The notes below the pieces were generated by a model. That model was not told the DNA's origin. It worked only from the letters and a program-made list of their open reading frames with translations, and did no database searches. From assembly GCF_900104385.1 (NCBI RefSeq), contig NZ_FNJA01000001.1, forward strand, positions 842,386-906,385: a stretch of 64,000 nt of DNA. Reading direction: 5' to 3'. Both the position numbers and the translations under genes were made by a program. Below are positions 16,402 through 63,651 of this stretch, piece by piece. This stretch comes from Rhodoferax sp. OV413 (lineage in GTDB: Bacteria; Pseudomonadota; Gammaproteobacteria; Burkholderiales; Burkholderiaceae_C). The first letter of the stretch is position 1. The number at the start of each line of letters is the position of its first letter.

Positions 16402-16479
16402 GGGGTGGTCCCTCATGGGGCGGGTCGTCCCGCCAGGTCAATGGCGCACCACGAGCCGTCCCGTGGGCAAAATTTAAGG

Positions 16480-16534
16480 AAAATCGGGCTCTGGCGCAGA
16501 TAACACCTGCGCCAGCAGCTACGGATTCAATAGC
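16480..16534 (-). repeat. interspersed repeat, copy E
   Basis: Reverse copy; read backwards it is GCTATTGAATCCGTAGCTGC, TGGCGCAGG, TCTGCGCCAGAGCCCGATTTT. It lies 3 bases after the stop of the DUF1989 gene and is the one copy whose orientation relative to the upstream gene is opposite to the others. Confidence 0.75.
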
Positions 16535-16537
16535 AAC

Positions 16538-18764: not shown

Positions 18765-19533
18765 GCATCCAAGGAAAAGCCTTGCGGTGCAGCAGGCGGA
18801 ACAGCTGGTCGATAGCCAGGCCGATGCAGCCGATCAGCAAGATGCCGGCAAAGATCTTGTCGGTCTGCAGGAAGCGCTGGGCCTTCAGAATCGCAAAGCC
18901 CAGGCCCGAATTCGCAGCCACCAGTTCGGCGACGACCAGATAGGTCCAGGCCCAGCCCATGGTGATGCGCAAGGTGTCCAGCAGCGCGGGCTTGGCCGAC
19001 GGCAGGATCACCTTCTCCAGCACCTCGCGCCGGGTCGCGCCCATGGTCTGCGCGGCCTCGATCTGCGCCATCGGCACGCGGCGCACGTCCTCGGCCACCA
19101 TCAACACCATCTGGAAGAAAGTGCCGATGAAGATGATCGCCACCTTGGCGCCTTCGTCGATGCCCACCCACAGCATCACCAGCGGGATGAAGGCCACGGC
19201 CGGCATGTAGCGGATGAAGTCGGTCAGCGGCTCCAGCAGCGCCTGCACCGCGCGCCAGCTGCCGATCAGCAGGCCCAGCGGCAGCGCCAGCAGGGCCGAC
19301 AGCGCCCAGCCGGTGACCACACGCAGGGTGCTAATGGCGGCGTCTCCCAGCAAGTCGTCTTCCATGGCCCAGGTGAGGATGCGCGCCACCACCTTTTGCG
19401 GACCCGGCAAGAACACCGGGCTGACGCCGGCAAACGCGCTCAGCAGCGCCCAGCCCAGCAGCGGAACCACCAGGCCGGCGAGCGCGAGCAAGCCGTAACT
19501 GCGACGCGAGATCGCCAGTCTTATCGACCACAT
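18754..19533 (-). CDS. ABC transporter permease (NitT/TauT type, guanidine importer)
   Basis: A 259-residue inner-membrane permease of the SsuC/TauC group with about six membrane segments, the first at residues 14-34. The EAA loop is visible as EAAQTMGATRREVLEKVILP around residues 137-156. It follows the binding-protein gene with nine bases between. Transport of guanidine is inferred from the operon. Confidence 0.88.
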   Translation of the reverse strand: MWSIRLAISRRSYGLLALAGLVVPLLGWALLSAFAGVSPVFLPGPQKVVARILTWAMEDDLLGDAAISTLRVVTGWALSALLALPLGLLIGSWRAVQALLEPLTDFIRYMPAVAFIPLVMLWVGIDEGAKVAIIFIGTFFQMVLMVAEDVRRVPMAQIEAAQTMGATRREVLEKVILPSAKPALLDTLRITMGWAWTYLVVAELVAANSGLGFAILKAQRFLQTDKIFAGILLIGCIGLAIDQLFRLLHRKAFPWMHGR

Positions 19534-19542
19534 GGGGACGAC

Positions 19543-20550
19543 CTACTTCAGCGCATCTTGGACCAGCGTGCCGTCTATGCCCTTGGCGGCATCGGGCTTG
19601 CCGTCGATCAGCTTGTACTGGGTCAAAAAGGCGGCGATGGTCGGCGCGGTGCTGGACAGCGACAAGGGGTTCTTGACATCAAAGGCCTGGGTGTTGGCGG
19701 CGGCGTCGAAGAACTTGGTGCCAGGCAGGAACACGGTGTATTCCTCGGGCGACATGCTGACCACCTTGGACATGATCTTGGCGGCTTCGGCGGGCTGTTC
19801 GCGGATGAATTTCTCGGTCTCGAACCAGGCCTTGATCATGCCGACCAGCTCCTTGCGCTTGGTCTGGATGGCCTTGTCTTGCGCCACCAGCAGGTCGGGC
19901 ACCAGGCCTGGCATGTCCTTGGATGTGAACAGTGGCTTGCCCTTGCCGCTGGCTTCGATCTGGTGCACCCAGGGGTTCCACAGCACGGCCGCATCGACCT
20001 TGCCACTGATGAAAGCGGCAGCGGCATCGCCGGCCGACAGATTCACGATCTTCACGTCGCCCAGCTTCATGCCGTTCTTGGCCAGCGCGGTGGCCAGCAC
20101 GAAGTGCGAGATGCTGTACTGCTCCAGCGCCACCTTCTTGCCCTTGAGCTGGGCGAAGGAGGTGATCTTGGGGCCGACCATCAGAGCGTCGTTGCCGGCC
20201 GAGTTGTCGTTCACAAGAATGGCTTTGAGTGGCAGGCCCTTGGCCAGAGGGCCCAGTGTGTCAGACCAGGTTTGCGAATTCGCATCCAGCTGGCCGGACG
20301 ACAGCGCGCCAATGGAGTCGGTGTAGTTGGCGAACCAGACCAGCTTGACGTCGGCGCCGTGCTTCTTGAAGAAGCCTTTTTGCTCGGCCACGTACCAGGC
20401 GACCCAGCCCGGCCAGTCGGACAGGCCGACCTTGACTTCGGCTGCAGCCGGCGTGGCGACGCTGGTGGCAGCCACACCGGCCAGCACCATGCAGGCGCCA
20501 GCGACGCTGCGTTTGAACGCGCGGGAAATCGACAGGAAAGAAGAAGACAT
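19543..20550 (-). CDS. periplasmic binding protein (NitT/TauT type, guanidine importer)
   Basis: A 335-residue solute-binding protein with a Sec signal peptide of about 37 residues ending ATPAAA. The mature N-terminus EVKVGLSDWPGWVAWYVAEQ is typical of ABC binding proteins of the SsuA/NMT1 type. It is the first gene after the guanidine-I riboswitch, so it and the importer are induced by guanidine. The ATG at 20550 was chosen because it gives the signal peptide; the frame upstream to 20589 runs into the riboswitch region. Confidence 0.9.
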   Translation of the reverse strand: MSSSFLSISRAFKRSVAGACMVLAGVAATSVATPAAAEVKVGLSDWPGWVAWYVAEQKGFFKKHGADVKLVWFANYTDSIGALSSGQLDANSQTWSDTLGPLAKGLPLKAILVNDNSAGNDALMVGPKITSFAQLKGKKVALEQYSISHFVLATALAKNGMKLGDVKIVNLSAGDAAAAFISGKVDAAVLWNPWVHQIEASGKGKPLFTSKDMPGLVPDLLVAQDKAIQTKRKELVGMIKAWFETEKFIREQPAEAAKIMSKVVSMSPEEYTVFLPGTKFFDAAANTQAFDVKNPLSLSSTAPTIAAFLTQYKLIDGKPDAAKGIDGTLVQDALK

Positions 20551-20579
20551 AGCAGGGCTCCAGGTTGAGGGACAAATGC

Positions 20580-20612
20580 GGGAGACCACCTCGATTACGA
20601 AGTGAACCTCCC
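20580..20612 (-). promoter_or_regulatory. hairpin overlapping the 3' edge of the guanidine aptamer (likely expression platform)
   Basis: On the minus strand GGGAG (20612-20608) can pair with CTCCC (20584-20580) around an inner stem CACTTCG/CGAGGTG with loop TAAT. The left arm is the last conserved block of the aptamer, so hairpin and ligand-bound aptamer should exclude each other. No T-run follows, so control may act through an imperfect or Rho-dependent terminator or through translation. Confidence 0.5.
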
Positions 20613-20720
20613 GGGCTTTTGTCCCGCCGTGGAGCCTGCAGCGGTATGGGCCGCTGTTGGCCGACTGCTCTCGGACCAGACACCGCTCGAATGCATCAAG
20701 CGGCCGGAACCCTAGCGGTC
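20604..20720 (-). promoter_or_regulatory. guanidine-I riboswitch (ykkC-yxkD leader, subtype 1)
   Basis: The minus-strand leader of the transporter operon holds, in the right order, the conserved blocks of the guanidine-I aptamer: CTAGGGTTCCG (20715-20705), TGGTCCGAGAG, and ACGGCGGGACAAAAGCCCGG followed by GAG (20630-20608). This aptamer binds guanidinium and turns on transport, carboxylation or efflux genes. It ends about 54 bases before the first start codon. The match is by eye to the known consensus and is strong. Confidence 0.93.
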
Positions 20721-20933
20721 ATTTGTAGAAGCAATCCAGTGTGGCTGCCCCCGCGGCATAGGAGCATGCAAATTCGGTGCCAGTTCGGCCAGAGCCGCCA
20801 ATTGCGGGCACGGCCCAATGGGAGGGCTGGTATAGCGGGTGGACGCAGCCCGGTACAACTGCCGCAGCCGCACCCCGCTGGTGCCTGGGCACGCCTGCGA
20901 TGCACCAGGAATGCACAGCCCGCAAGTCCAGTT

Positions 20934-50738: not shown

Positions 50739-51647
50739 ATGCCCCAACCTCTCATTACCGCGATTGTTTCGACATACAGCGCCGAACGTTTCATGCGCAG
50801 TTGTCTGGAGGATCTGGTAGAGCAAACCCTCTTTAGCGAGATGGAGGTGTTGGTGATTGACAGCGGCTCTCCGCAGGGAGAGAGTGCTATTTGCGAGGAG
50901 TTTGTGCGCAAATATCCGCAGATCAAGCTCCTACGCACCGAGCGCGAACCTTTGTATGTGGCATGGAACCGCGCCATTCCATTGGCCAGGGGGCAATACC
51001 TGACCAATGCCAATACCGATGACCGCCACCACCCCGACTTCATGGCGACCATGGTTGCCGCACTGGAAAGCCACCCCGAGGCCGCGTTGGCGTACGCCGA
51101 CCAGCTGATCAGCCATACGGAAAACGAGAGCTTTGCCGAATGCGAGAGCCGTGGCGCCAAGCTGCGCCGCTGGCCCGACTACACGCCAGAGGACTTACTG
51201 CTGCGCTGCATTACCGGGTCGCAGCCGGTGTGGCGCAAATCGCTGCACAGTGCGCTGGGCGTTTTTGATACCAGCTACCGCATCGCAGCCGATTACGATA
51301 TGTGGCTGCGGTTCGCCAGCCAGCACCCGCTGCTGCATGTTCCCAAAGCCTTGGGCGTATTTTTTGATTCTCCTCACACCATCTCAGGGGCGAGCAACCA
51401 AGTTCATGTCAATTTGGAAACACTGGCTATCCAAAAAACCTATGTCGATCATCCGAACTGGCGGGGTATTCCAAAAATGCGCAAGCGTTTAGCTGCAGAG
51501 CTGTTTGGCCGGGGTTACCAGCATATTGAGCGCGACCACAATGTGCAGGCGGCGCAGCCTTTTATCCGGGAAGCGGTAAAGCTGGACCCAACCAATCTTC
51601 GATTTTTAAAAACTTATGCCGTCCGCTGTCTCGCAGGCATTCAATAA
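50739..51647 (+). CDS. glycosyltransferase family 2
   Basis: A 302-residue GT-A-fold glycosyltransferase. LITAIVSTYSAERFMRSCLE opens the nucleotide-binding domain, EVLVIDSGSPQGES follows, and the metal-binding region reads YLTNANTDDRHHP. The C-terminal 50 residues form a helical tail. It is the first of three genes for making a glycan or modifying a surface sugar. Base composition falls along the operon compared with the flanks, hinting at a different origin. Donor and acceptor unknown. Confidence 0.85.
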   Translation: MPQPLITAIVSTYSAERFMRSCLEDLVEQTLFSEMEVLVIDSGSPQGESAICEEFVRKYPQIKLLRTEREPLYVAWNRAIPLARGQYLTNANTDDRHHPDFMATMVAALESHPEAALAYADQLISHTENESFAECESRGAKLRRWPDYTPEDLLLRCITGSQPVWRKSLHSALGVFDTSYRIAADYDMWLRFASQHPLLHVPKALGVFFDSPHTISGASNQVHVNLETLAIQKTYVDHPNWRGIPKMRKRLAAELFGRGYQHIERDHNVQAAQPFIREAVKLDPTNLRFLKTYAVRCLAGIQ

Positions 51648-51657
51648 AAGGCATAGC

Positions 51658-52623
51658 GTGAAAAAATATTTAATTACCGGATTCTCGGGTTTTGTAGGGC
51701 GTCATTTTTTAGATTATTTAAATGGTTTGAATGAACCAATTTCTGTACTGGGCATTGACCGGGATGCGGTTAATTTTGACCTGAACCAGTTTGGCAATCT
51801 GGAATGTGCGTTCAAGAAGGCCGATTTATTGCAAAGCCATGAATGGGAGCCTTTGATTGCGCTGTTTCAGCCAGATTACATCGTGCATTTGGCGTCTTTT
51901 AGCAGTGTGGCGTTCAGCTGGGTGAATCCTATTCAGAGTTTTGCCAATAACACCAATGTATTTTTGAATCTTCTGGAGACGGTGCGTAAGGTCAATCCCC
52001 GCTGCCGCATTTTGTCGATTGGCTCTTCTGAGGAATATGGCGCTTGCGCCTTGGACCAATTACCTTTGACCGAGGACGCCAAGCTCAACCCCGTCAGCCC
52101 TTACGCGGTGGCGCGTGTGTCCCAGGAACTGTTATCCACGGTGTATGTCGATGGGTTTGGCTGCGACATTGTGATGACCCGCTCGTTCAACCACATCGGT
52201 CCCGGACAGCTAGATACCTTTGTCATTTCTTCGTTCGCCCGCAAGCTATTGGCCATACAAAATGGAAGTGCAGATGCCGTCATGTTGACAGGCGACACTA
52301 CCATCGTGCGCGACTTTGTCGATGTGCGGGACGTTGTGCGCGCGTATGACCTGCTTTTGCGGCAAGGGCGTTCTGGCCATATCTACAACATCTGCAGCGG
52401 CACCGGCGTAGCATTGAAGTCAGTGATTGACCAGATGGCTTCCATTCTGGGGATTTCTGTCGTACAGAAAATAGACCCTCAGCTGGTTCGGCCTAATGAC
52501 AACAAGGCCATTATTGGATCCCTGAAAAAAATCAATGATGAAATTGGGTGGGCGCCAAGCATTCCACTGGATACCAGCCTGCGGGATATCTTGAACTACT
52601 GGCGCGAAAAATCCATCGCATGA
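51658..52623 (+). CDS. NAD-dependent sugar epimerase/dehydratase family protein
   Basis: A 321-residue extended short-chain dehydrogenase acting on nucleotide sugars. The NAD site is YLITGFSGFVGRHFLDYL. The catalytic Tyr is in NPVSPYAVARVSQELL, where the usual YxxxK lysine is Arg. Resembles GDP-6-deoxymannose reductases and related GDP-mannose enzymes. A GTG start at 51658 was chosen; the ATG at 51616 would lie inside the upstream gene. The AT-rich beginning (AAAAAATATTTAATTACCGG) contrasts with most of the window. It overlaps the next gene by four bases. Confidence 0.82.
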   Translation: MKKYLITGFSGFVGRHFLDYLNGLNEPISVLGIDRDAVNFDLNQFGNLECAFKKADLLQSHEWEPLIALFQPDYIVHLASFSSVAFSWVNPIQSFANNTNVFLNLLETVRKVNPRCRILSIGSSEEYGACALDQLPLTEDAKLNPVSPYAVARVSQELLSTVYVDGFGCDIVMTRSFNHIGPGQLDTFVISSFARKLLAIQNGSADAVMLTGDTTIVRDFVDVRDVVRAYDLLLRQGRSGHIYNICSGTGVALKSVIDQMASILGISVVQKIDPQLVRPNDNKAIIGSLKKINDEIGWAPSIPLDTSLRDILNYWREKSIA

Positions 52624-53819
52624 AAATACTTTATGACCACCAGGCCTTTGAAATGCAGAAGTTCGGAGGTATTTCCCGTTACTTTTGCGAGCTTATTACC
52701 CAGCTAGACAACACCCCTACAGCCTCGGTAGAAGTGGCCATACAGTACTCTCATAACGAGTATTTGAAGAGCACCCGGTTTGGATTGAAGACACAGGAAA
52801 ATCCGGATAGTTACGAGAATTTTATGAGAGGGCACGATTTTCGCGGAAAATGGAACCTCTACGCCGCCAGAAACAAGCTGCGCAAACCAATTGATGCAGA
52901 GGCGATTAACAAGCAAGTGGCTATTGCCGCGTTGCAGCGGCAAGATTTCGATGTCTTCCATCCCACGTACTACGACGATTATTTTTTGCCCTACATAGGC
53001 AATAAGCCATTCGTTTTAACCGTGTACGACATGATCCATGAGATCTACCCCGAGTATTTCAATCTGGCGGACCGTACCTCAGACCGTAAACGCAGGCTGG
53101 CCCAGAAGGCCCACAAGATTCTGGCCATATCAGAGTGCACGAAGAAAGACTTGGTACAGTTTTTTGGCATATCCGCTGAAAAAGTGGAGGTGGTCCATCT
53201 GGCCAGTTCCATGGGCACTACTAACACCCCGCCCACCCGATCGTCCGAGCTACCTGCACGGTACGTGTTGTTTGTGGGATCACGGACGGTCTATAAAAAC
53301 TTTTTCTTCCTTATCAACAGCATACGCACGCTACTGGCTGCAGACCCGGAACTGCACATCGTCTGCACCGGGACCGGGTTCAACAAGAACGAGCGTGTGT
53401 TCTTCGAGATACACGGCCTGGCAGACCGGGTGCACCACCGCTCGGCCAACGATGCCGAGTTGCAAGCGCTCTACCAGCAGGCGCAGGTGTTTGTGTTTCC
53501 GTCGCTGTACGAAGGATTTGGCTTGCCGGTGCTAGAAGCCTTCAGCTGCGCCTGCCCTACAGTGCTTGGCAATTCCGGCTCCTTGCCGGAAATCGGTGGT
53601 GACGGCGCTTTGTACTTCGAACCCAAAGATGCCCAGTCGCTCCGGCTAGCGATGTCACAAGCGCTGTACGACCAAGCATTGCGCTCCGACCTGGTAGCTC
53701 GTGGGCAGCGCCGCCTTGCGCTATTTACCTGGGAAAAAACTTGCCGCGGCACCGAGATCGCTTACCGCGAGCTGGCGGGCTCACAAGCAGCGCCCGTAAC
53801 CAGGATTCGCACTGCTTGA
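52620..53819 (+). CDS. glycosyltransferase family 1/4 (GT-B)
   Basis: A 399-residue GT-B glycosyltransferase. MKILYDHQAFEMQKFGGISR opens the acceptor domain, and the donor domain contains FPSLYEGFGLPVLEAF, the E-x-G-F-G-L-P-x-x-E signature of GT4, then GSLPEIGGDGALYF. It probably uses the GDP- or other nucleotide sugar made by the preceding gene. ATGA overlap couples it to that gene. Ends the three-gene operon. Confidence 0.88.
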   Translation: MKILYDHQAFEMQKFGGISRYFCELITQLDNTPTASVEVAIQYSHNEYLKSTRFGLKTQENPDSYENFMRGHDFRGKWNLYAARNKLRKPIDAEAINKQVAIAALQRQDFDVFHPTYYDDYFLPYIGNKPFVLTVYDMIHEIYPEYFNLADRTSDRKRRLAQKAHKILAISECTKKDLVQFFGISAEKVEVVHLASSMGTTNTPPTRSSELPARYVLFVGSRTVYKNFFFLINSIRTLLAADPELHIVCTGTGFNKNERVFFEIHGLADRVHHRSANDAELQALYQQAQVFVFPSLYEGFGLPVLEAFSCACPTVLGNSGSLPEIGGDGALYFEPKDAQSLRLAMSQALYDQALRSDLVARGQRRLALFTWEKTCRGTEIAYRELAGSQAAPVTRIRTA

Positions 53820-54189
53820 ATGCCTGCAAGAGCGTCGCTGCCAGCAAACGAATGACTGCCAGTTGCTGCGTGGGTGCAGCATCAATAGCTGCCACCACAT
53901 ATCGGATATAGGCGACCTGCTCGCCGACGTTGTGGTCTCGCGCAGTTCATCCTCTGTTTGAGGGATGCATCGGGCGCCGCTGAACCGTAGACTGCCCCCG
54001 CGCTTACCAGAACTTTACTTTTCCCAAAAGAAGGCGCACTGTTTAGAAGTTGCGTGTTTGGCAATTAGTGGGCAAAAACCGCGTTTTTTGCGCCGCGCGC
54101 CCTACTGCCACAGCGGATGTCCGCGCTGTGCCCACCCCGCCAGTCCTGCAGCAGCGTGGATATTCCGTTTCCTTCACCGGAGGATGGCG
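53820..54189. other. intergenic region before the redox operon
   Basis: A 370-base gap that should contain the promoter of the redox operon. A fragment GCATCAATAGCTGCC (about 53878-53892) recalls the GCTAT end of the interspersed repeat but is too short to count. A minus-strand frame of 60 codons (53882-54064) has no recognisable similarity. GGAGG at 54179-54183 is the ribosome site of the next gene. Confidence 0.3.
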
Positions 54190-56718
54190 ATGGCACATCG
54201 GCACTGGCACACAACAACCCGCTGGCTCCTGTTGCTGGGCGGCCTGCTCATCGCAGCATGCTCCCAAGGCCCGCAACCCGGCGCGGTGCTGGACGAGGCC
54301 AAGCTCGCCGGCCGCGACGGCAAGAGCTTCCCGCATGCAGCCGAGGACTACTTCCATGACATGGACGGCGCGCTGGCGCTGTCGCCGCAGGAAGTGGCCG
54401 GGCGCAATATGTGGATCGTCTGGACCGGCGGCAACGACCGCCTGTGGGACCACATGACGGACTTCACCTTCGGCGCCTTCGACCTGCTGAAATCCATCAG
54501 CTCGCACCCCAGCCAGGGCTATTCGCGGGCCAACCGCTGGGAATACCTGGGCCTGGTCAACGAGCCCTGCTTCGGCAATGCCAGCGGCCCCGACAAAGCC
54601 CGCCACGGCCTGTGGCTGGATGTGCGCGACAAAGGTTGCGCGCCCGACCCGTTCGAAGACGCCACCAAGTACCCGGGCGTGGCCATCGGCGCGCGCGGCA
54701 AGCCGCTGGGCGACGGCAGCACGCTGCCGGTGGGCTCGTACTACGGCGAAGCCACCGGCATCGTGGGGCTGCGCCTGTTTCCGAATCCGGCGTTTGACGA
54801 AAAAGCCGCCAAGGCCTGGGACGCGGAAAAGTACTACACCGACCCCAAGTACTACAACCGGCAGGACCTGGTGCGGCCCTACCGGGTCGGCATGTCCTGC
54901 GGCTTCTGCCATGTAGGCCCGAGCCCAGTGAACCCGCCCAGCGACCCGAATGCGCCTGCCTTCGCCAACCTCAGCTCGTCGGTGGGCGCGCAGTACATGT
55001 GGGTAGACCGGCTGTTCATCCACAACGCCAACAAACCCGAGGGCCAGAAGAACTACATGTACCAGTTGGCGCACAGCTTCCGGCCCGGCGCCATGGACAC
55101 CTCGCTGATCTCCACCGACAACATCAACAACCCGCGCACCATGAACGCCGTGTACGACTTCATGGCCCGCATGGGTACGGCCAAGCAGCTGTGGCATGAA
55201 AAGCTCAGCGGCGGCGAGCTGGACAACAAGCAGTTCAACGACTACATCGCCAGCGGCCCGCTGAGCGAGTTCTTTGATAAGGCCAGTAGCACTGTGCGCA
55301 CCCCGCATGTGCTGAAGGACGGCGCCGATTCGGTCGGTCTGCTGGGCGCGCTGAACCGGGTCTACCTGAACATCGGTCTGTTCAGCGAAGAATGGCTGCT
55401 GCATTTCAACGCCGTGGTCGGCGGCAAGACCGTCACCCCGATCCGCATCGCCGACGCGCAAAAGAACTCAGGCTACTGGCAGGCCACCGAGGCCGGCACG
55501 CCGAACACCGCGCTATTCTTCCTGAAGGCCGCCAAGCCCGACTACCTGCAGGATGCGCCCGGCGGCGCGGCCTTCCTGGCCACCGACAACAGCACGCTGG
55601 AGCGCGGCAAGGCGGTGTTTGCCGATACCTGCGCGCGCTGCCATTCCAGCAAAGCCCCCACCCCGCCGCCCGATCTGGGCCTGGAGCCGCAAAAATGCGC
55701 AGGTGCCGGCTACCTGGCCTGCTTCAAGCGCTACTGGGGCTGGACCCAGACCGAGGCCTACAAGACCCAGATGCGCCAGATCGTGCTGGCGCCCGACTTC
55801 CTGCAGGGCAACTACCTCTCGACCGAGGCGCGCATCCCGTCGACCCTGCTGCGCACCAATGTCTGCAGCCCGCTGGCTACCAATGCGCTGGGCGGCAACA
55901 TCTGGGACAACTTCTCGTCCAGCTCGTACAAGCAGCTGCCCTCGGTCGGCACGGTTACGTTGAACGACCCGTTCACCGGCGCCCTGCTGCCCTACACCAT
56001 GCCCGCTGGCGGCCGCGGCTATACCCGCGTGCCGTCGTTGATCGGTCTGTGGTCTACCGGGCCGTATCTGCTGAACAACACGGTCGGCCCGTTCGAATCC
56101 AGCCCCTCGGTCGCCAGCCGCATGAAGGTGTTCGACGCCTCCATCACGCAAATGCTCTGGCCCGAAAAACGCGAGCGCGATGCCGAGCTCGGCGACAAGC
56201 TGCCCGGCACCATAGACCGCACCACGCAGCGCAGCGAGGTGGTGGTGCCCGCTGGCTATGTGCCCGACGCGCTGCAGCCCCTGCAAGGCACGCTGCACCG
56301 CTGGCTGCCCTGGCTGGTGGGTGCGGGCGAGGACATCACGCTCGGCCCCATCCCCAAGGGCATGCCGGTGAACCTGATCGCCAACCTCAAGCTGCGCGCC
56401 GAGAGCGACGACGTGGGCGACAAGCTGGCCCATGTGCGCAATGTGGGCGAGCTGGTGCTCAAGCTCAAGGCCGACCTGGCCACCGCGCCCAAGGACGCCA
56501 GCGACCAGGAGCTGCGTGCCAAGTTCGCCAATCTGCGCGAACCCATGCTGCGCCTCAGCAAGTGTCCGGACTTCGTGGTCAACCGCGGCCACTACTTCGG
56601 CACGGCCGAGTTCAACCAGCAAGAAGGCCTGAGCGCCGACGAAAAAGCCTTTGGCACCGAACCGGTGCTGAGCGACGACGACAAGCGCGCGCTGATTGCC
56701 TTCCTGAAGACCTTCTAA
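54190..56718 (+). CDS. dihaem c-type cytochrome lipoprotein, RoxA/CCP-like
   Basis: An 842-residue exported protein. The N-terminus is a lipoprotein signal with lipobox LIAAC-S. Two haem c sites are present, CGFCHVGPSP (about 238) and CARCHSSKAP (about 480). Later, GRGYTRVPSLIGLWSTGPYL resembles the conserved region of the bacterial cytochrome c peroxidase/RoxA superfamily, whose members include rubber oxygenase RoxA and fatty-acid dioxygenases. It could be an oxygenase or an electron acceptor on the outer face of a membrane. ATG 54190 has GGAGG at good distance; ATG 54184 lies too close. It starts a six-gene operon. Function is inferred. Confidence 0.82.
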   Translation: MAHRHWHTTTRWLLLLGGLLIAACSQGPQPGAVLDEAKLAGRDGKSFPHAAEDYFHDMDGALALSPQEVAGRNMWIVWTGGNDRLWDHMTDFTFGAFDLLKSISSHPSQGYSRANRWEYLGLVNEPCFGNASGPDKARHGLWLDVRDKGCAPDPFEDATKYPGVAIGARGKPLGDGSTLPVGSYYGEATGIVGLRLFPNPAFDEKAAKAWDAEKYYTDPKYYNRQDLVRPYRVGMSCGFCHVGPSPVNPPSDPNAPAFANLSSSVGAQYMWVDRLFIHNANKPEGQKNYMYQLAHSFRPGAMDTSLISTDNINNPRTMNAVYDFMARMGTAKQLWHEKLSGGELDNKQFNDYIASGPLSEFFDKASSTVRTPHVLKDGADSVGLLGALNRVYLNIGLFSEEWLLHFNAVVGGKTVTPIRIADAQKNSGYWQATEAGTPNTALFFLKAAKPDYLQDAPGGAAFLATDNSTLERGKAVFADTCARCHSSKAPTPPPDLGLEPQKCAGAGYLACFKRYWGWTQTEAYKTQMRQIVLAPDFLQGNYLSTEARIPSTLLRTNVCSPLATNALGGNIWDNFSSSSYKQLPSVGTVTLNDPFTGALLPYTMPAGGRGYTRVPSLIGLWSTGPYLLNNTVGPFESSPSVASRMKVFDASITQMLWPEKRERDAELGDKLPGTIDRTTQRSEVVVPAGYVPDALQPLQGTLHRWLPWLVGAGEDITLGPIPKGMPVNLIANLKLRAESDDVGDKLAHVRNVGELVLKLKADLATAPKDASDQELRAKFANLREPMLRLSKCPDFVVNRGHYFGTAEFNQQEGLSADEKAFGTEPVLSDDDKRALIAFLKTF

Positions 56719-56721
56719 CCC

Positions 56722-58572
56722 ATGGTGGATGCCGAAACATGCGAATGGGACTACATCATTGTGGGATCGGGCGCAGGCGGCGGCACCCTGGCGGCGCGGC
56801 TGGCGGAAGCCGGCATGCGCGTGTTTCTGCTCGAAGCCGGCGGCGATCCGCGCCTGGCCCAGGGGCCGCGCCTGCCCGAGGACTACGACGTGCCGGGCTT
56901 CCACGCCTTTGCCTGTGAGAACCCCGCCATGGCCTGGAACTTCCAAGTGCGCCACTATGCCGACGAAGCCCGCCAGGTGCGCGACCCCAAATACAGCACT
57001 GAGCGCCAGGGCGTGCTCTACCCGCGCGCCGCCGCACTAGGCGGTTGCACCGCGCACAACGCCATGATCTTCATGCGGCCGCACGACTCCGACTGGAACC
57101 AGATCGCCACACTGACCGGCGACCCCAGCTGGCGTGCACCGCAGATGCAGCGCTACGCCCAGCAGCTGGAAAACTGCCACCACCGCCCGATCTGGCGCGG
57201 CCTGCGCCGGCTCGGGCTGGACCCGACCGGCCACGGCTGGAACGGCTGGCTGCAGACCGAGCGCCCGGTGCCGCTGGAAGCCTTGGGCGACCCGCAGATG
57301 CGCGGCCTGGTGTCCCAGACCGCACACAACTTCACCCGCGAGCTGCCCACCCCGCTGCGCAGCGCCCTGCGCTGGCTGCGCGGCAAGGGCGACCCGAACG
57401 CCCGGCCCTGGGGCGGCGGCAGCTTCGAAGGCCTGTGCTACACACCGCTGTCCACCGCCGCCGGCGGCCGCACCGGCGCGCGCGAACGGGTATTGCAGGC
57501 CGCGGCCCGGCACCCCGACCGGCTGCACATCGAGCTGCACGCCCTGGCCACGCGCGTGTTGCTGGATGCGCAGGGCACGGCCTGCGGCGTCGAATTCCTG
57601 AAAGGCGAGCGCCTATACCGCGCCCATGCCGCCACCAGCAGCATCCCCGGCCGGCGCAAGCAGGTGCGAGCTAAACGCGAGGTCATCCTGTGCGGCGGAG
57701 CCTTCAACACGCCGCAGCTGCTGATGCTGTCCGGCATCGGCCCGGCCGACGCCCTGCGCAGCCACGGCATTCCGCTGCAGGTCGATCTGCCCGGCGTGGG
57801 CCGCAACCTGCAAGACCGCTACGAGGTGGCCGTCACCCACCGCATGCAGCGGCCCTGGCAGATGCTGGACAAGGCCCGCTTCGCGCGCGGCGACCCGCAG
57901 TGGCAGCGCTGGAACGCGCTGCGCGCTGGCATGTACGCGACCAACGGCGCGGCCCTGGGGCTGGTGCGCAAATCCGCCCCCACACAGCCCGAGCCCGACA
58001 TCTTCTGCATGGCCCTGCCCGCGCGCTTTGAGGGCTATGCGCCCGGCTTCGCCGAGATGATCAGCCAGCACGCCGACAGCCTGACCTGGGCTGTGCTCAA
58101 AGCCCATACGCAGAACCGTGCGGGCAGCGTGACGCTGCGCTCGGCCGACCCTTGCGACATGCCACTGGTTAACTTCCGCTACTTTGAAGAAGGCAGCGAT
58201 GCCGCTGGCGGCGACCTACAGTCGGTGGTGCAAGCCATCCGGTTTGTGCGCGGCCTCACCTCCCCATTGCAGGCCCGCGGCCTGATCGCCGAGGAATGCC
58301 TGCCCGGCAACGGCGTGCAGAGCGACGCGGCCCTGGCCGACTATGTGCGAGACACCGCCTGGGGCCACCATGCATCCTGCTCCTGCCCTATCGGCCCGGC
58401 GGCCGACGGCGGTGTGCTGAACAGCCGGTTTGCGGTACACGGCACGCGCGGCCTGCGGGTGGTGGACGCCTCGGTGTTCCCGCGGATTCCCGGTTTTTTC
58501 ATCGCAGCAGCGGTCTACATGGTGGGCGAAAAAGCCGCCGATGTGCTGCTGCAAGACGCGGCCCAGGCATAG
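56722..58572 (+). CDS. GMC-family FAD oxidoreductase
   Basis: A 616-residue glucose-methanol-choline oxidoreductase. The FAD site is YIIVGSGAGGGTLAARLAEA (about 11-30), followed by LPRAAALGGCTAHNAMIFMR-like segment (ALGGCTAHNAMIFMRP), and the C-terminal active-site region has WGHHASCSCPIGPAADGGVL with the catalytic His. It oxidises an alcohol or aldehyde group. It has no signal peptide, so it is probably cytoplasmic, in contrast to the cytochrome gene three bases upstream. Substrate unknown; electron acceptor may be O2, a quinone or the operon's haem proteins. Confidence 0.88.
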   Translation: MVDAETCEWDYIIVGSGAGGGTLAARLAEAGMRVFLLEAGGDPRLAQGPRLPEDYDVPGFHAFACENPAMAWNFQVRHYADEARQVRDPKYSTERQGVLYPRAAALGGCTAHNAMIFMRPHDSDWNQIATLTGDPSWRAPQMQRYAQQLENCHHRPIWRGLRRLGLDPTGHGWNGWLQTERPVPLEALGDPQMRGLVSQTAHNFTRELPTPLRSALRWLRGKGDPNARPWGGGSFEGLCYTPLSTAAGGRTGARERVLQAAARHPDRLHIELHALATRVLLDAQGTACGVEFLKGERLYRAHAATSSIPGRRKQVRAKREVILCGGAFNTPQLLMLSGIGPADALRSHGIPLQVDLPGVGRNLQDRYEVAVTHRMQRPWQMLDKARFARGDPQWQRWNALRAGMYATNGAALGLVRKSAPTQPEPDIFCMALPARFEGYAPGFAEMISQHADSLTWAVLKAHTQNRAGSVTLRSADPCDMPLVNFRYFEEGSDAAGGDLQSVVQAIRFVRGLTSPLQARGLIAEECLPGNGVQSDAALADYVRDTAWGHHASCSCPIGPAADGGVLNSRFAVHGTRGLRVVDASVFPRIPGFFIAAAVYMVGEKAADVLLQDAAQA

Positions 58573-58609
58573 CATTTTTCACAGCGGGCAACCGCACAAG
58601 GAGAAGACC

Positions 58610-59041
58610 ATGGCATACGACGTACCCCAACTACTGGCCATGACGCAAGTCCAGCTGGACGACCTGTTCCGCTCCAGCCCGGCCGGCGAGATTCCGAATG
58701 GCAGTGCCCACGGCACGGCCATCATCGCCCCGGGCACCAAGTACACAGAGAGCATCGCCCATATCATCAACCTGTTCGGCTGGCAGGGCAAAACCTTCGA
58801 CGCGCAAAAAGGCGTGCTGAAGAACAAGGTGCTGGTGTTCGGCTTCGAAGCCGTGGTGGCCAAGGTCTACAAGGACAAGAGCTGGCTCGATGGCGAGGAA
58901 TGCATCGTGCTCGACTATTCGGACACCTCACTACTCGCGCACTACATCCGCGACGAGATCCGCCTCATCGGCCCGGGCTTCTACCTGGGCAAGGTGTACT
59001 GGGGCAAAGAGCGCTTAATCGACTTCTGCCTGCAGTTTTAG
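58610..59041 (+). CDS. conserved protein of unknown function, 143 residues
   Basis: Not recognised as a named family. A soluble protein: an N-terminal helix (LLAMTQVQLDDLFRSS), then GTAIIAPGTKYTESIAHIIN and a beta-rich end (LIGPGFYLGKVYWGKERLID). The end recalls small lipid-binding folds seen near lipid-oxidising enzymes, but that is only suggestive. AGGAG precedes the ATG. It lies between the GMC gene and a membrane protein in the redox operon. Confidence 0.7.
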   Translation: MAYDVPQLLAMTQVQLDDLFRSSPAGEIPNGSAHGTAIIAPGTKYTESIAHIINLFGWQGKTFDAQKGVLKNKVLVFGFEAVVAKVYKDKSWLDGEECIVLDYSDTSLLAHYIRDEIRLIGPGFYLGKVYWGKERLIDFCLQF

Positions 59042-59065
59042 CGCTGGACGCCCCGGATCTCCGCA

Positions 59066-60364
59066 GTGACCCCGCAGTCGCACTTCATGGTGATCGCCCC
59101 GCTGGCAACCGGCCGCGAGGACGCGCTGCGTGCCTTGCTGGCCGGCATGAACCGCAACGCCGGCATGGTCGACCCGCAGAATGCGCTGCTGCCGTTCGGC
59201 CGCTTTGCGCAGCTGCACTATGCGCGCCTGGTCATGCTGGACGATGCGCTGCAGGTCGACCTGGAAACCCTGGGCCTGCCACGCCCGCGCCTACCCGCTT
59301 ACCTGGCTTTCATGGGCGACTGCGACGGCCCGGCACGCGACTGCCTGGCCGACCTGGCGCTGCATGCAGGCGACGGGCTGCGCCGCATCTTTGCCCACTG
59401 CGCAGGCTTTGCGGCGTCAGGCGACCTGCTGGACTGGATGCTGGCGCACGACCAGCCGGTGGCCGCCAGCTACATCCACTGGGTGGGCCGCAGCGTGCTG
59501 CAGATCCGCCAGGAAAGCGCCTTGCAGCGCGTGCTGGCCGCCTGCGTGCCGCGCGCGCCCCTGGCATCGGAGGCCGAGGCGCTGCGCATCTGGCGAGAGC
59601 TGCGCGCCTTTGTCGAAGCCGAGCGCAGTGCCGGCCGGCTGCTGCTGACGCCCGCCGAGCCCACGCCGCTGGGGTGGACAGCGGCCAAGCTGCTGAACCT
59701 GCTGGCCCTGCCCCTGGTCGGCCTGGCCGTGCTGCCGCTATTCATCATCCTGCTGCCGCTGCTGGTGCAGCAGCTGCGCAGCCGCGAGATCCACGACCCC
59801 GAGATCTGCCCGCGCCCCGACCCCGCAGCCCTGCAGGCGCTGCAAGACCTGGAGGACTTTGATGTGAGCAACCAATACACCGCCTTGGGCGCGGTCAAGC
59901 CCGGACTGTTCCGACGCGGGCTTGTCACCCTGCTGCTGGTGCTGATCAATTACGCCTGCCGCCATGTGTTCACCCGCGGCCACCTGGCAAGGGTGCAGAC
60001 CATCCATTTCGCACGCTGGGCGTTTCTGGACGACAAAACCCGCGTGGTCTTCACCAGCAACTACGACGGCAGCCACCAAGGGTATATGGACGACTTCATC
60101 AACAAAGTAGCCTGGGGCCTGAACCTGGTGTTCAGCAACGGCATAGGCTGGCCGCGCACGCGCTGGCTGATACTGGGCGGCGCGCGCCACGAGCAGCCGT
60201 TCAAGTACTTCCAGCGACGCCACCAGATACCCACCCAGGTTTGGTACAAGGCCTACCCCGGCCTGACCCTGGCCGACATGCGGCGCAACCAGCGCATCCG
60301 CGAAGGCCTGGAGCGCAGCTACATGAACGAGGCCCAGGCCCTGGCCTGGCTGAGGCTGCTATGA
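59066..60364 (+). CDS. membrane-anchored protein of the peroxidase operon, unknown function
   Basis: A 432-residue protein not recognised by name. Residues 1-200 form a soluble part (MVIAPLATGREDALRALLAG near the start), a strongly hydrophobic segment spans about 208-232 (LLNLLALPLVGLAVLPLFII), and the C-terminal part contains HFARWAFLDDKTRVVFTSNY, then GYMDDFINKVAWGLNLVFSN. The two soluble parts look like ferredoxin-like domains related to the DyP/chlorite-dismutase fold, an inference by eye. A GTG start at 59066 was chosen; ATG 59087 is an alternative. It overlaps the DyP gene by four bases. Confidence 0.7.
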   Translation: MTPQSHFMVIAPLATGREDALRALLAGMNRNAGMVDPQNALLPFGRFAQLHYARLVMLDDALQVDLETLGLPRPRLPAYLAFMGDCDGPARDCLADLALHAGDGLRRIFAHCAGFAASGDLLDWMLAHDQPVAASYIHWVGRSVLQIRQESALQRVLAACVPRAPLASEAEALRIWRELRAFVEAERSAGRLLLTPAEPTPLGWTAAKLLNLLALPLVGLAVLPLFIILLPLLVQQLRSREIHDPEICPRPDPAALQALQDLEDFDVSNQYTALGAVKPGLFRRGLVTLLLVLINYACRHVFTRGHLARVQTIHFARWAFLDDKTRVVFTSNYDGSHQGYMDDFINKVAWGLNLVFSNGIGWPRTRWLILGGARHEQPFKYFQRRHQIPTQVWYKAYPGLTLADMRRNQRIREGLERSYMNEAQALAWLRLL

Positions 60365-61818
60365 GCGGCGCACCGGTCGACCTGGACGACATCCAGGGTC
60401 TGGTCCGCTTTGGCTACAAGCACCATACCGAGGCCTGCTTTCTGCTGCTGCGCGTGACCGACCCCGCAGCCGCCCGCGCCTGGCTGGCCCGCGCGCCCGT
60501 CGCCAGCGCCGCCACCACCGAGCCCCCACCGGCCACGGTGCTGCAGCTGGCGCTGGGCAGCGAAGGCCTGCGCGCCCTGGGCGTGGCCGAGGACACGATT
60601 GCCGGGTTCTCGCCCGAATTCCTCTCCGGCATGGGCAACGACCCGAGCCGCGCACGCCGACTCGGCGACACCGGCGCCAACGCACCCAGCGGTTGGCTCT
60701 GGGGCAGCGGCGCGCAGATACCGCATCTGCTGCTGATGCTGTACGCCCTGCCCGGCCAGCTGCAGGCCTGGCAGGCCACCATAGAAGCGCAATGCGCAGC
60801 CGGCTTTGAGATCATGACCCGCCTGCCCTGCGGCGAGCTCCGCGGCAACGAGCCGTTTGGCTTTGCCGACGGCATTTCGCAGCCCATGCTCGACTGGCGC
60901 CGCGACCGCGCGGTGCGCGACGCCGAGCAGCTGCGCTACACCAACCTCAGCTGCCTGGGCGAATTCCTGCTCGGCTACCCGAACGAATACGGCGGCTACA
61001 CCGACCGCCCCCTGCTCGACCCGCAGCGCGACCCGCAAGCCCTGCTGCCACGCGCCGAAGACGCGCCGCACCGCGCCGACCTGGGCCGCAACGGCAGCTA
61101 CCTGGTGATGCGCCAGCTGCAACAAGACGTGGATGGCTTCTGGCAGGCGCTCGACCAGCTGGCCGAGGGCGACCCGGCGCTGCGCGAAAAGCTGGCTACC
61201 GCCATGGTCGGCCGCACCCGCAGCGGCCACCCGCTGCTGCCCACCGCAAAAAGCTCGCCGCCGGACCTGAACGCCTTTACCTACAACGAAGACCCCCGCG
61301 GCACCCTGTGCCCGCTGGGCGCCCATATACGGCGCGCCAACCCACGCACCGCCGACCTGCCGCCCGGCGACCCGGGCATGGTGTCGTGGCTGATGCGCAC
61401 CCTGGGTTTTGACGCCCAGTCGCTGGAGCAAGACCGCGTGGCCTCCACCCGCTTCCACCGCCTGCTGCGCCGCGGCCGGGCTTACCACCACGCCCAGGGC
61501 CCGGAGGGGGCCGAAACCGGCCTGCACTTCATCTGCCTGGGCGCCAGCATCTCGCGCCAGTTTGAATTTGTACAGGGCGCCTGGCTGCATGCGCCGCACT
61601 TCGACGGCCTGCCCAACGAGAGCGACCCGCTGCTGGGCAGCCGCGCAGCCGCAGCCGACGGCACCGCCACCGACAGTTTCTCCATCCCCCAGCTGCAGGG
61701 GACCGACCAGCGCCTGCCGGGGTTGCCGCAGTTCGTCACCCTGCGCGGCGGGGCCTACTTTTTCCTGCCCGGCATCCGCGCGCTGCGCTACCTGGCAAGC
61801 CAAGGAGCTGCGCCATGA
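60361..61818 (+). CDS. DyP-type haem peroxidase
   Basis: A 485-residue dye-decolourising peroxidase. The signature GFADGISQPMLD contains the distal Asp, and LCPLGAHIRRANPR holds the proximal His and the distal Arg region. It has no signal peptide, so it is cytoplasmic unless carried by a partner; no encapsulin gene is in the window. DyP enzymes use H2O2 to oxidise aromatic or other substrates, and some act as oxygenases. Coupled by ATGA to both neighbours in the redox operon. Confidence 0.9.
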   Translation: MSGAPVDLDDIQGLVRFGYKHHTEACFLLLRVTDPAAARAWLARAPVASAATTEPPPATVLQLALGSEGLRALGVAEDTIAGFSPEFLSGMGNDPSRARRLGDTGANAPSGWLWGSGAQIPHLLLMLYALPGQLQAWQATIEAQCAAGFEIMTRLPCGELRGNEPFGFADGISQPMLDWRRDRAVRDAEQLRYTNLSCLGEFLLGYPNEYGGYTDRPLLDPQRDPQALLPRAEDAPHRADLGRNGSYLVMRQLQQDVDGFWQALDQLAEGDPALREKLATAMVGRTRSGHPLLPTAKSSPPDLNAFTYNEDPRGTLCPLGAHIRRANPRTADLPPGDPGMVSWLMRTLGFDAQSLEQDRVASTRFHRLLRRGRAYHHAQGPEGAETGLHFICLGASISRQFEFVQGAWLHAPHFDGLPNESDPLLGSRAAAADGTATDSFSIPQLQGTDQRLPGLPQFVTLRGGAYFFLPGIRALRYLASQGAAP

Positions 61819-63038
61819 ACTCGAACACCAGCCGGCCCGTACCCCGCGCCAACACCGGGTCGGCGCTGCGCGACTGGGTATCCGACACCTCGCTGGCGCT
61901 GATACAGCTGCAGCGCCGCTTCGACCCGTTCCTGCGCCCGGCCTTCGAGGCCTTGCTGCTCGAGCCATTGACCCGGCTGACCACCGCGCTGATCAACGCC
62001 CAGCGGCCGAACGAAGGCCTGCGGATTGCCGAAGAGCGGCTGCTGCCCGGCGAGGAAGAATGCGTGGATTCGATCATCCGCAGCTTCAACCTGCAGATGC
62101 GCGCGCTGTGGAAGCCCGGCGGCTTCGAGCGGGGTGGCAACACCAAGACCCAGGGCATCGTGCGCGCCGAGTTCATCGTCCACGACAACCTGCCCCCAGC
62201 GCTGCGCCGCGGCATCTATGCACAGCCACGCAGCTACCCGGCCTGGGTACGCTTTTCCGGCCCCGGCCCGTATGTCACGCCGGACATTGACGACGTGGGC
62301 TTCATGAGCATCAGCGTCAAGCTGATGGACGTGCCCGGCCCCAAGCTGATGGACGAAGAAAAATTTACGCAAGACATGTTCGGCGTATCGCCGCCCACCT
62401 TTGTCACGCCGGACGTGATCGCCAACGCCCAGCTGCAGCTGGAGAGCCTGAAGAACGCGCAGATCTTCTACTTCTTCAACCTGCACCGCCCGCATGTGCT
62501 GGACGCCATCATGCAAGGCCTGTGGACCAAGACCCAGAGCAGCCCGCTGGAGGCGCCCTACTTCAGCTGCGTACCCTACTTGCTGGGCGAGGGCCAGGCC
62601 ATGCAGTATTCGTTCTGGCCCAAGAGCAAAAAGCGCACGCCGATTCCGCGCCTGCCGCTGCGCCCGCCCGACGACTACCTGCGCCAAGCCATGGTCCAGT
62701 CTTTGGCGGACGGCGATGTAGAGCTGGACGTGCGCCTGCAGCTGCAGACCGACGCGCACCTGATGCCCATAGAGAACGCCAGCGTGCTCTGGCCCGAACG
62801 CCTGTCGCCCCGCATCTCGGCCGCCACCCTGCGCATTCCGCGCCAGCAGTTCGACTCGCCCGCGCAGATGGAATTCGCCAAGCGCCTGTCCTACAACCCC
62901 TGGCACAGCATTACCGAGCACCGGCCGCTGGGCAACCAGAGCCGGGCCCGCAAACGCATGTACTACGAGCTGTCGCAGCTGCGGCACCAGATGAACGCCG
63001 TGCCGCACTTCGAGCCCACGGGGGACGAGTTGTTCTGA
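61815..63038 (+). CDS. catalase-like haem protein (SrpA/allene-oxide-synthase-related)
   Basis: A 407-residue member of the catalase superfamily. It carries VRAEFIVHDNLP (likely distal His), YPAWVRFSGPGPYVTPDIDD and MDEEKFTQDMFGVSPPTFVT. The end YNPWHSITEHRPLGNQSRAR is typical of the short catalase-like group found beside lipoxygenases. True catalase length and the Tyr-haem-ligand region appear absent, so a peroxygenase or fatty-acid hydroperoxide activity is plausible. It ends the redox operon and overlaps the DyP gene by four bases. Confidence 0.85.
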   Translation: MNSNTSRPVPRANTGSALRDWVSDTSLALIQLQRRFDPFLRPAFEALLLEPLTRLTTALINAQRPNEGLRIAEERLLPGEEECVDSIIRSFNLQMRALWKPGGFERGGNTKTQGIVRAEFIVHDNLPPALRRGIYAQPRSYPAWVRFSGPGPYVTPDIDDVGFMSISVKLMDVPGPKLMDEEKFTQDMFGVSPPTFVTPDVIANAQLQLESLKNAQIFYFFNLHRPHVLDAIMQGLWTKTQSSPLEAPYFSCVPYLLGEGQAMQYSFWPKSKKRTPIPRLPLRPPDDYLRQAMVQSLADGDVELDVRLQLQTDAHLMPIENASVLWPERLSPRISAATLRIPRQQFDSPAQMEFAKRLSYNPWHSITEHRPLGNQSRARKRMYYELSQLRHQMNAVPHFEPTGDELF

Positions 63039-63052
63039 CCCGTTTTTATGTG

Positions 63053-63109
63053 AAAAACAAGCCGCTGGTGCAATCAGCACCTGCGGCAGCCGCTACTCTT
63101 TAGATAGCA
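63053..63109 (-). repeat. interspersed repeat, copy O
   Basis: AAAAACAAGCCGCTGGTGCA, ATCAGCACCTGCGGCAGCCG, CTACTCTTTAGATAGC. It starts 14 bases after the catalase-like stop. Confidence 0.75.
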
Positions 63110-63124
63110 AACGGCAGCGCAGGC

Positions 63125-63472
63125 CTAGGCATCTTCCACGCCCAGGGCCGCCAGTCCCAAAGGCAACAGCAGGATGAAGCTGGCGCAGGCTGCGGCCATG
63201 CTGCCGAACAATATGCCGGACGCAATCACCAGGCCGCTGACCGCCAGGCTGCCGGCGACCCGCTCCAGCGGAGTCGGCCGCAACAGCCCCAGCGACACAT
63301 AAAAGCAGCCCAGCACCAGGCCCGCACCCAGCATCCAGCCCAGAGACCACAGCAAGCCGATCAGCAGCGACATCAGCAGCGCCGTGGCAATTGCGATGGC
63401 GGGCGGCGTATATGCCTGCTCCATCAACAAGGTTGTGCGCGACAGCAAGATGGAGCGGGCAAATAAGGGCAT
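63125..63472 (-). CDS. small integral membrane protein, 115 residues
   Basis: Not recognised. A 115-residue protein with about four hydrophobic segments (about 24-42, 45-62, 74-92, 94-110), the first including AIAIATALLMSLLIGLL. No enzyme motif or Cys cluster. It is convergent with the redox operon and divergent from the partial gene at the right edge. Confidence 0.6.
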   Translation of the reverse strand: MPLFARSILLSRTTLLMEQAYTPPAIAIATALLMSLLIGLLWSLGWMLGAGLVLGCFYVSLGLLRPTPLERVAGSLAVSGLVIASGILFGSMAAACASFILLLPLGLAALGVEDA

Positions 63473-63651
63473 GGAATTTTCTCCAGAACGGAGCCTGGAT
63501 GATCGGTTGGGTGCCAGCGCCGGGCCGTCAGCCGCCTGGGCCTCTTGCTGTAGGACGCCATCCTGCCTGGCGTCAAGCCCGGCATTTGTGGTCCGGGCCA
63601 GCCGCCCTGCACGGCCTTGTCCTACAGCCAGACCACGGGCGATCGCATTGA

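Follow-up and report, generated by a model that had tools for sequence, protein, structure and literature searches.

Fungal Ppo proteins (linoleate diol synthases) consist of a peroxidase-type dioxygenase fused to a P450, and catalase-related lipoxygenase (LOX) fusions exist in cyanobacteria. Among the heme enzymes known to rearrange hydroperoxides are P450-type and catalase-type proteins (PMC5617202). In Pseudomonas aeruginosa, PA2078 and PA2077 are described as an oleate 10S-dioxygenase and a diol synthase, which convert oleate to a hydroperoxide and then to a diol (PMC4496055, as far as its accessible sections go), and the oxylipins of this pair serve as signals according to the accessible portion of another paper (PMC6377657). 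We analyzed a stretch of 64,000 nucleotides, referred to as the window, from Rhodoferax sp. OV413 (assembly GCF_900104385.1, contig NZ_FNJA01000001.1, positions 842,386 to 906,385 of the forward strand). It contains six consecutive genes, named A to F here, for a large diheme c-type cytochrome (A), a GMC-family flavin adenine dinucleotide (FAD) oxidoreductase (B), a small protein with a predicted lipocalin-like fold (C), a protein with two predicted ABM/SchA-like domains (D), a DyP-type peroxidase (E), and a catalase-related, probably tyrosine-ligated heme protein (F). The genes of this set are conserved and colocalized, residues for heme binding are kept, and heme modules alternate beside A between genomes. 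We propose, with a probability of roughly 45%, that the six genes serve an oxylipin-type lipid oxygenation with interchangeable heme modules.

The six open reading frames (ORFs) are open and codirectional from 54190 to 63038, with intergenic gaps of 3, 37, 24, -4, and -4 bases. A first-pass annotation, made from the sequence alone, had reported this six-gene run with the same gaps, and its coordinates proved exact. Judged from the spacing, A to F are likely carried on a single transcript; that annotation had also called one likely. Across 28 named loci with six complete and codirectional genes, the median gaps are 19, 61, 10, -4, and -4 bases. A good ribosome-binding sequence was recognized by eye upstream of C, and no sigma-70-like promoter was found within positions 53700 to 63600.

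The set was followed through relatives of A. Our sample holds the best 80 of at least 576 confirmed relatives and is thus biased to close relatives of the window's A; counts use 57 named loci in which A is flanked by at least 8 kb on either side, 23 of the 80 being dropped because the contig ends within 8 kb. Neighboring genes were called by a simple codon-position script, with no gene finder, and many were named by eye. Within the genus, A is present in all eight genomes, the window's own included, and five of the seven others carry all six genes in the same order on one contig, a recurrence well beyond chance. In one of the remaining two (G205), B to F lie together on one contig and A on another. 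The other (G200), 73% complete and too fragmented to tell, has A plus only a distant paralogue of F. Four loci of the A sample (L111, L113, L138, and L189) appear to be contigs identical to those of genomes G200, G205, G201, and G193, which makes the samples overlap. A locus from another class of the phylum (L092) has all six genes in the same order, at 48 to 66% identity. Nearly every one of the 57 loci (56) has B, 45 have C, and 40 have F, D and E occur in 38, and 38 hold the full set; the carriers include Variovorax, Novosphingobium, and acidobacteria. D is rare: 200 genomes of the order gave 7 with a hit and 299 of the phylum gave 15, the window's own genome counted in both, and most hits cover the C-terminal half only.

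The 38 full sets, from Pseudomonadota and Acidobacteriota, show six arrangements. In 25 loci, A-B-C-D-E-F run on one strand; in seven alphaproteobacterial loci, A-B-F face E-D-C on the opposite strand; four further arrangements occur in six loci, all acidobacterial except for one alphaproteobacterium. C, D, and E are adjacent in every full set (38/38). Because the set is kept together though reshuffled and inverted, a shared function is better supported than it would be by a frozen order. An unconserved gene order had been named in advance as grounds for giving up the six-gene operon; what we found is the exact order in 25 of 57 loci and 13 more full sets in which the genes are reordered. In the open-access literature, with subscription papers uncovered, we found no paper on the gene set, the D family, the P450-D-DyP fusion, or the module exchange described below, and no described function of the cluster; the protein families themselves are known except for C and D. 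At an E value of 0.001, Pfam assigned none of the window's C, D, and F to a family, and matches among their relatives were weak and scattered.

Gene A had been labeled a RoxA-like cytochrome. Its two heme c sites (CxxCH at residues 237 to 241 and 481 to 485) and a C-terminal NxGHxFG motif with H801 are invariant in all 30 aligned rows, and 61 of 78 relatives have a lipobox-like pattern. The RoxA-like Pfam model PF21419 matched the window's A at an E value of 0.069, below its cutoff, and gave weak matches in 14 of the 30 rows. The model NF040606 (CytoC_perox) matched all 30 rows at an E value of 0.01, each below the cutoff (best, 2.3e-12; the window's A, 1.1e-6, with 28 bits against a cutoff of 150). 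Scores with the RoxA family model (best E value, 0.0032; 1 of 30 rows) and the RoxB family model (0.0009; 4 of 30 rows) were likewise below cutoff, and neither matched the window's A at 0.01. The MauG motif PY(F/L/M)HNGSVP is tabulated for characterized RoxA and RoxB (PMC6311187) and for PA2077 and PA2078 (PMC4496055) in the accessible parts of these papers. It reads PYLLNNTVG in the window's A. Its histidine is replaced by leucine or glutamine in all 23 window-type aligned rows, while seven more distant rows retain it; a pattern search found the replacement in 74 of 78 relatives, and the pattern was unmatched in the other 4. We therefore rejected A as a RoxA orthologue. By these profiles, A appears to be a remote relative within the RoxA/di-heme cytochrome c peroxidase superfamily, so the earlier label holds for remote kinship only.

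D and E are absent from 19 of the 57 loci, and what adjoins A differs between the two groups. Four of the 19 loci without D/E, but no locus of the 38 having D-E-F, carry a tandem RoxA-type pair beside A (Fisher p = 0.0098). For a patatin family, the counts are 8 of the 19 and 1 of the 38 (p = 3e-4), and in seven of the eight loci it lies 27 to 569 bases from a cluster gene; the large patatin-like proteins behind A-B(-C) (Table 1) are from Chromobacterium and Alphaproteobacteria. Pfam was run on one patatin (L173), one RoxA-type pair (L156), and one Tle1-like phospholipase, and the other patatins and pairs were assigned by BLAST clustering. The one pair tested is above the PF21419 cutoff. Of the 8 RoxA-type frames, 6 retain an intact MauG motif; the 2 without it are the frames of 238 amino acids, the pairs of L170 and L186 having been called as frames of 1,110 to 1,111 and 238 amino acids. 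Tle1-like phospholipases lie 0.4 to 2.5 kb from the cluster in 4 of the 80 loci. On the tree of A, from which L171 was omitted because its A frame failed the length filter, the D-E state changes at least six times on supported branches. This pattern is suggestive of an alternation of D-E-F with a true RoxA-type tandem pair or a patatin phospholipase. A and B are kept in nearly all variants, which argues that A does not simply act as RoxA.

Neighbors of the cluster also bear on another explanation, in which an exogenous hydrophobic compound (a terpenoid, a polyisoprene-like substance, or an aromatic) is catabolized or exported, with A as the outer oxygenase and B to F acting downstream. Enzymes of the DyP and GMC families take part in the breakdown of lignin and terpenoids. 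Export would be consistent with two transporter families, named by eye, that are repeatedly found close to the cluster, for the most part in Variovorax. One is multidrug-exporter-like and occurs in 18 of 80 loci, at 4 of them within 1 kb; the other is MATE-like (for example, L119:20453-21952), occurs in 13 of 80, at 8 of them within 1 kb, and is nearly always from Variovorax. Polyisoprene itself is cleaved by RoxA and RoxB (PMC6311187, accessible part), but A fails the RoxA motif test. Moreover, no ring-cleavage or beta-oxidation family was recognized among the 45 largest neighbor families, and recurrence across more distant taxa is seen for phospholipases and RoxA-type pairs. We regard this explanation as quite unlikely. 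No conserved regulator was found; the commonest recognized were LysR proteins in 7 of 80 loci (2 within 1 kb) and MocR-like proteins in 5 of 80 (none within 1 kb).

A second view of the alternation comes from a sister family. Its A' proteins are about 25 to 30% identical to A and adjoin a C-like protein, and most A' loci also hold a protein of 670 amino acids and two RoxA-type genes. The 670-amino-acid protein had no Pfam or NCBIfam match (one tested). Seventeen genomes have an A-type match; subtracting the window's own, G193 (of the window type), G003 (whose A itself matches PF21419 weakly), and G063 (in pieces) leaves 13. Eleven of these 13 contain two strong PF21419 genes but lack a full-length D; in nine of the 11, the PF21419 genes share a contig with A' and lie no more than about 10 kb from it. 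The other two (G014 and G356) carry F-D-E close to A' and gave no match to PF21419 (Fisher p = 0.013, a value that is too low, to the detriment of the exchange, if these very similar loci go back to one event). In individual sister clusters (L103, L105, L106, L107, L109, L090, and L108), A', the C-like gene, and the 670-amino-acid gene are followed by a RoxA-type pair or by F-D-E.

D and E also occur away from A and A', in 17 loci (L010 to L014, L052 to L054, L093, and L094 to L101). A P450 of the fusion type was found within the fetched stretch in 8 of the 17, and in 4 it is fused, giving single P450-D-DyP frames of 1,408 to 1,530 amino acids in four genomes of the phylum. The first-pass annotation had advised a search for a co-occurring P450, and here the P450 appears as a partner of D-E.

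E was matched by PDB entry 8re3 at an E value of 3e-39 and scored 81 bits with TIGR01413, under the cutoff of 100.5, in addition to its PF20628 match (Table 1). DyP motifs comprise the aspartate of GxxDG, a heme histidine, and a distal arginine. The corresponding D170, H322, and R370 of E are invariant in all 19 rows, and by its motifs E is an intact DyP-type peroxidase.

The best solved relative of F is coral allene oxide synthase (cAOS; PDB 1u5u), at a profile E value of 8.7e-5. Residues R106, R146, Y383, and R390, invariant in 32 of 32 rows, align to cAOS R64, R102, Y353, and R360, with Y383 and R390 placed by spacing and R106 and R146, like the distal part, lying in a weak stretch of the alignment (1.4 bits); R379 to Y383 form the proximal RxxxY, likewise kept in 32 of 32. 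The distal Thr-His pair has become Gly-Asn in all 32 aligned rows, and the distal histidine (cAOS H67) is replaced by Asn109 in 32 of 32 aligned sequences and 49 of 49 found by pattern. Paralogues of F outside the cluster keep the histidine, reading AHPK or VHAK, in 5 of 7 cases, those whose stretch was shown; the match of N109 to H67, although within the weak stretch, agrees with them. F is probably a tyrosine-ligated heme protein, judged from these residues. The same comparison makes F unlikely to be a catalase, a candidate role that we rejected: the heme-binding residues of cAOS are kept, but the distal histidine is an asparagine. In the earlier description of F as catalase-like, the kinship thus stands for the heme residues, while the distal histidine of catalases is lost. 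No lipoxygenase gene was found in the window's genome, by a search that also matched no control genome and so is not decisive.

Our proposal has its main rival in the detoxification of lipid hydroperoxides, which would account for much of the same evidence. The heme peroxidases would remove lipid or organic hydroperoxides, and the GMC and lipocalin-like proteins would clear the alcohols and aldehydes that result. Catalase-related proteins, like DyP proteins, are able to use organic hydroperoxides, E has its DyP motifs intact, and A falls, remotely, among di-heme cytochrome c peroxidases. A molybdenum hydroxylase subunit follows A-B(-C) in five loci, four of them from Cupriavidus (with a 2Fe-2S subunit also in 4 of the 5 gene calls), and the second gene of the P. 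aeruginosa tandem pair relieves hydroperoxide toxicity (PMC4496055, accessible sections). Window-type A, however, lacks the histidine of the MauG motif and F the distal histidine of catalases, and an alternation with RoxA-type oxygenases or phospholipases would not be expected of a plain detoxification set. On balance, we consider detoxification possible, though somewhat unlikely.

GMC alcohol oxidases have a catalytic histidine plus a second histidine or asparagine. In B, the first is H550 in all 23 rows. The second canonical position (595), placed via the alignment to 8b7s, holds alanine, valine, glycine, or threonine in all 23 and never histidine or asparagine. PDB 8b7s, a GMC chloramphenicol-inactivating oxidoreductase, is the best PDB match of B (E value of 2.4e-47). 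Peroxide from B as an alcohol oxidase, which would suit the local peroxide production envisaged by the first-pass annotation, is doubtful because this second residue is absent.

For C, which had no Pfam family and gave nothing in a PDB sequence search, an AlphaFold2 model (predicted local distance difference test [pLDDT], 81) was compared with solved structures. The best row was 4mve (Tcur_1030), with a Z score of 11.4, a root mean square deviation (rmsd) of 3.5 over 128 residues, and 12% identity; the next row had a Z score of 6.0. A lipocalin-like fold is therefore predicted. The model of D (pLDDT, 87) has its best matches, among those listed, in 9lmn (Z score, 13.6; rmsd, 3.8 over 216) and 9ltx (Z score, 11.2; rmsd, 4.4 over 193), both polyketide ABM/SchA-like proteins, while D gave no Pfam ABM match and nothing meaningful in a PDB sequence search. 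Hydropathy places a hydrophobic membrane-type helix at about residues 204 to 239, and D is predicted to be a membrane-tethered double-ABM-fold protein whose helix joins both domains. These structural matches would suit a tailoring role in secondary metabolism, in which the double-ABM protein, DyP, and the catalase-like protein modify a polyketide or similar compound, as would ketosynthase-like genes recognized by eye upstream of A at one Novosphingobium locus (L174). A shared fold proves no function, though, and no polyketide, peptide, or terpene synthase family was recognized among the 45 largest neighbor families, so we find such tailoring highly improbable.

Acyl-lipid oxidation with exchangeable heme modules is the economical reading, as D-E pairs with a P450 or with F, and D-E-F replaces a RoxA-type pair. 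That the substrate is a lipid is supported by the characterized RoxA-type pair, which acts on oleate, by the phospholipases (patatin and Tle1-like) that recur as neighbors, and by the cAOS kinship of F and the lipocalin-like prediction for C; the lipid-type substrate of the first-pass annotation is thereby plausible and not more. We infer the substrate, the order of steps, and every catalytic role of A to F as follows. A-B(-C) would form a core, and D-E-F would belong to a group of exchangeable heme modules that share one type of substrate, for which unsaturated fatty acids or acyl chains from phospholipids are the likeliest candidates. C may bind a hydrophobic compound, either the substrate or the product. 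Tethered to the membrane, the D-E pair would form or use a lipid hydroperoxide, which F, with its rebuilt distal pocket, would rearrange instead of dismuting hydrogen peroxide. B may act on the oxygenated product, and the exported A could be an electron-accepting or peroxidase-type diheme partner. A bolder version, which we hold to be doubtful, is that D-E-F and P450-D-DyP are a new class of fatty acid oxygenase. It would combine a membrane-tethered DyP-type dioxygenase with a catalase- or P450-type hydroperoxide isomerase and so be the bacterial equivalent of LOX-cAOS in corals and Ppo in fungi, interchangeable with the RoxA-type oleate pair and sharing the A-B-C core.

Several points weigh against oxylipin-type oxygenation by exchangeable modules. 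Compartments are its weakest point: A is exported, by eye no signal peptide is apparent in B, C, E, or F, and D is membrane tethered only. Since RoxA-type c cytochromes must be periplasmic, exchanged modules may occupy different compartments. The exchange itself is suggestive only once phylogeny is allowed for: in six independent pairs, changes went the opposite way about 4 times and the same way about 0.1 times, with a median sign-test p of 0.125, and phylogeny alone could account for them. Strict exclusion of modules is broken by one genome (G140), which, besides a RoxA-type pair, has DyP and P450 with a D-like region on a separate contig. One D-E-F locus (L140) has a patatin 4.3 kb away, and one of the patatins counted at loci without D/E (L155) is a 138-amino-acid piece 6.5 kb off. 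The five molybdenum hydroxylase loci have neither D-E-F nor a RoxA pair nor a patatin, and no P450 was found in 9 of the 17 D-E loci without A. Finally, in Sorangium cellulosum So ce26 (L185:10001-12382), an A-type cytochrome stands with none of B to F within the stretch examined.

If oxylipins are made, bacterial lipid signaling or defense would be far wider than the well-studied Pseudomonas pathway. RoxA-type proteins, DyP with a catalase-type protein, and DyP with P450 would then be three heme scaffolds that solve one chemical task in different ways. Because the modules alternate, the function can be tested directly: each module predicts the substrate of the other.

Table 1 Features of the window (genes A to F) and of related loci (locus:positions)
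Feature	Coordinates	Strand	Basis or remark
Gene A, large diheme c-type cytochrome, 842 amino acids	54190..56718	+	CxxCH twice, lipobox-like N terminus
Gene B, GMC-family FAD oxidoreductase, 616 amino acids	56722..58572	+	N- and C-terminal GMC domains (PF00732/PF05199) above cutoff
Gene C, predicted lipocalin-like fold, 143 amino acids	58610..59041	+	AlphaFold2 model
Gene D, two predicted ABM/SchA-like domains and membrane-type helix, 432 amino acids	59066..60364	+	AlphaFold2, hydropathy
Gene E, DyP-type peroxidase, 485 amino acids	60361..61818	+	PF20628 above cutoff, motifs intact
Gene F, catalase-related, probably Tyr-ligated heme protein, 407 amino acids	61815..63038	+	Profile match to 1u5u
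P450, D-like membrane region, and DyP in a single frame	L094:7853-12079; L095:7602-11837; L096:7359-11729; L098:7336-11928		
Patatin-like proteins, 878 to 968 amino acids	L173:14338-16998; L168:14513-17419; L163:14398-17034; L152:14838-17678		Directly behind A-B or A-B-C
Molybdenum hydroxylase subunit after A-B(-C)	L141:14432-17207; L143:14843-17660; L146:5234-7981; L147:5230-7497; L160:14386-17572		Four Cupriavidus

Elsewhere in the window, a Guanidine-I riboswitch (84.5 bits) lies at positions 20606 to 20726 on the minus strand, ahead of same-strand genes at 10991 to 20589. By eye these look like ABC transporter, urea-carboxylase-like, and hydrolase genes, and the run looks like an ordinary guanidine degradation operon. 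A link of the six genes to the adjoining sugar genes at 50739 to 53819 (epimerase and glycosyltransferases) was rejected, such genes being unrecognized among the 45 largest neighbor families. A role in antiphage defense was also rejected, as PADLOC matched none of the six proteins at an E value of 0.01.

One of the known systems close to the locus is PA2078-PA2077 of P. aeruginosa (the FadCcp tandem pair; PMC4496055), with heme-dependent lipid oxidation proposed for both. The same kind of RoxA-type di-heme pair replaces D-E-F beside A in other genomes, a likeness by type. The window itself has no RoxA-type pair; its A is larger, has lost the histidine of the MauG motif, and has as companions GMC, DyP, catalase-like, lipocalin-like, and double-ABM proteins. 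With RoxA and RoxB (PMC6311187), A shares two covalent heme sites, a conserved C-terminal histidine, and a remote profile similarity, but it is below the cutoffs of their models, has PYLLNNTVG in place of PYFHNGSVP, and is, with 842 amino acids, larger than RoxA at about 70 kDa. The likeness of C to Tcur_1030 (4mve) is one of predicted fold only, with a Z score of 11.4 at 12% identity. F keeps the heme-binding arginines and tyrosine of the coral cAOS/hydroperoxide lyase group (PMC5617202, accessible part), where its closest solved structure lies; it differs from coral cAOS in its distal Gly-Asn and in its partner, a DyP protein, with no lipoxygenase partner found by the search that lacked a control match. 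Like fungal Ppo, the relatives of D-E in four genomes join a peroxidase to a P450, but with the unrelated DyP fold and an extra membrane-tethered double-ABM region.

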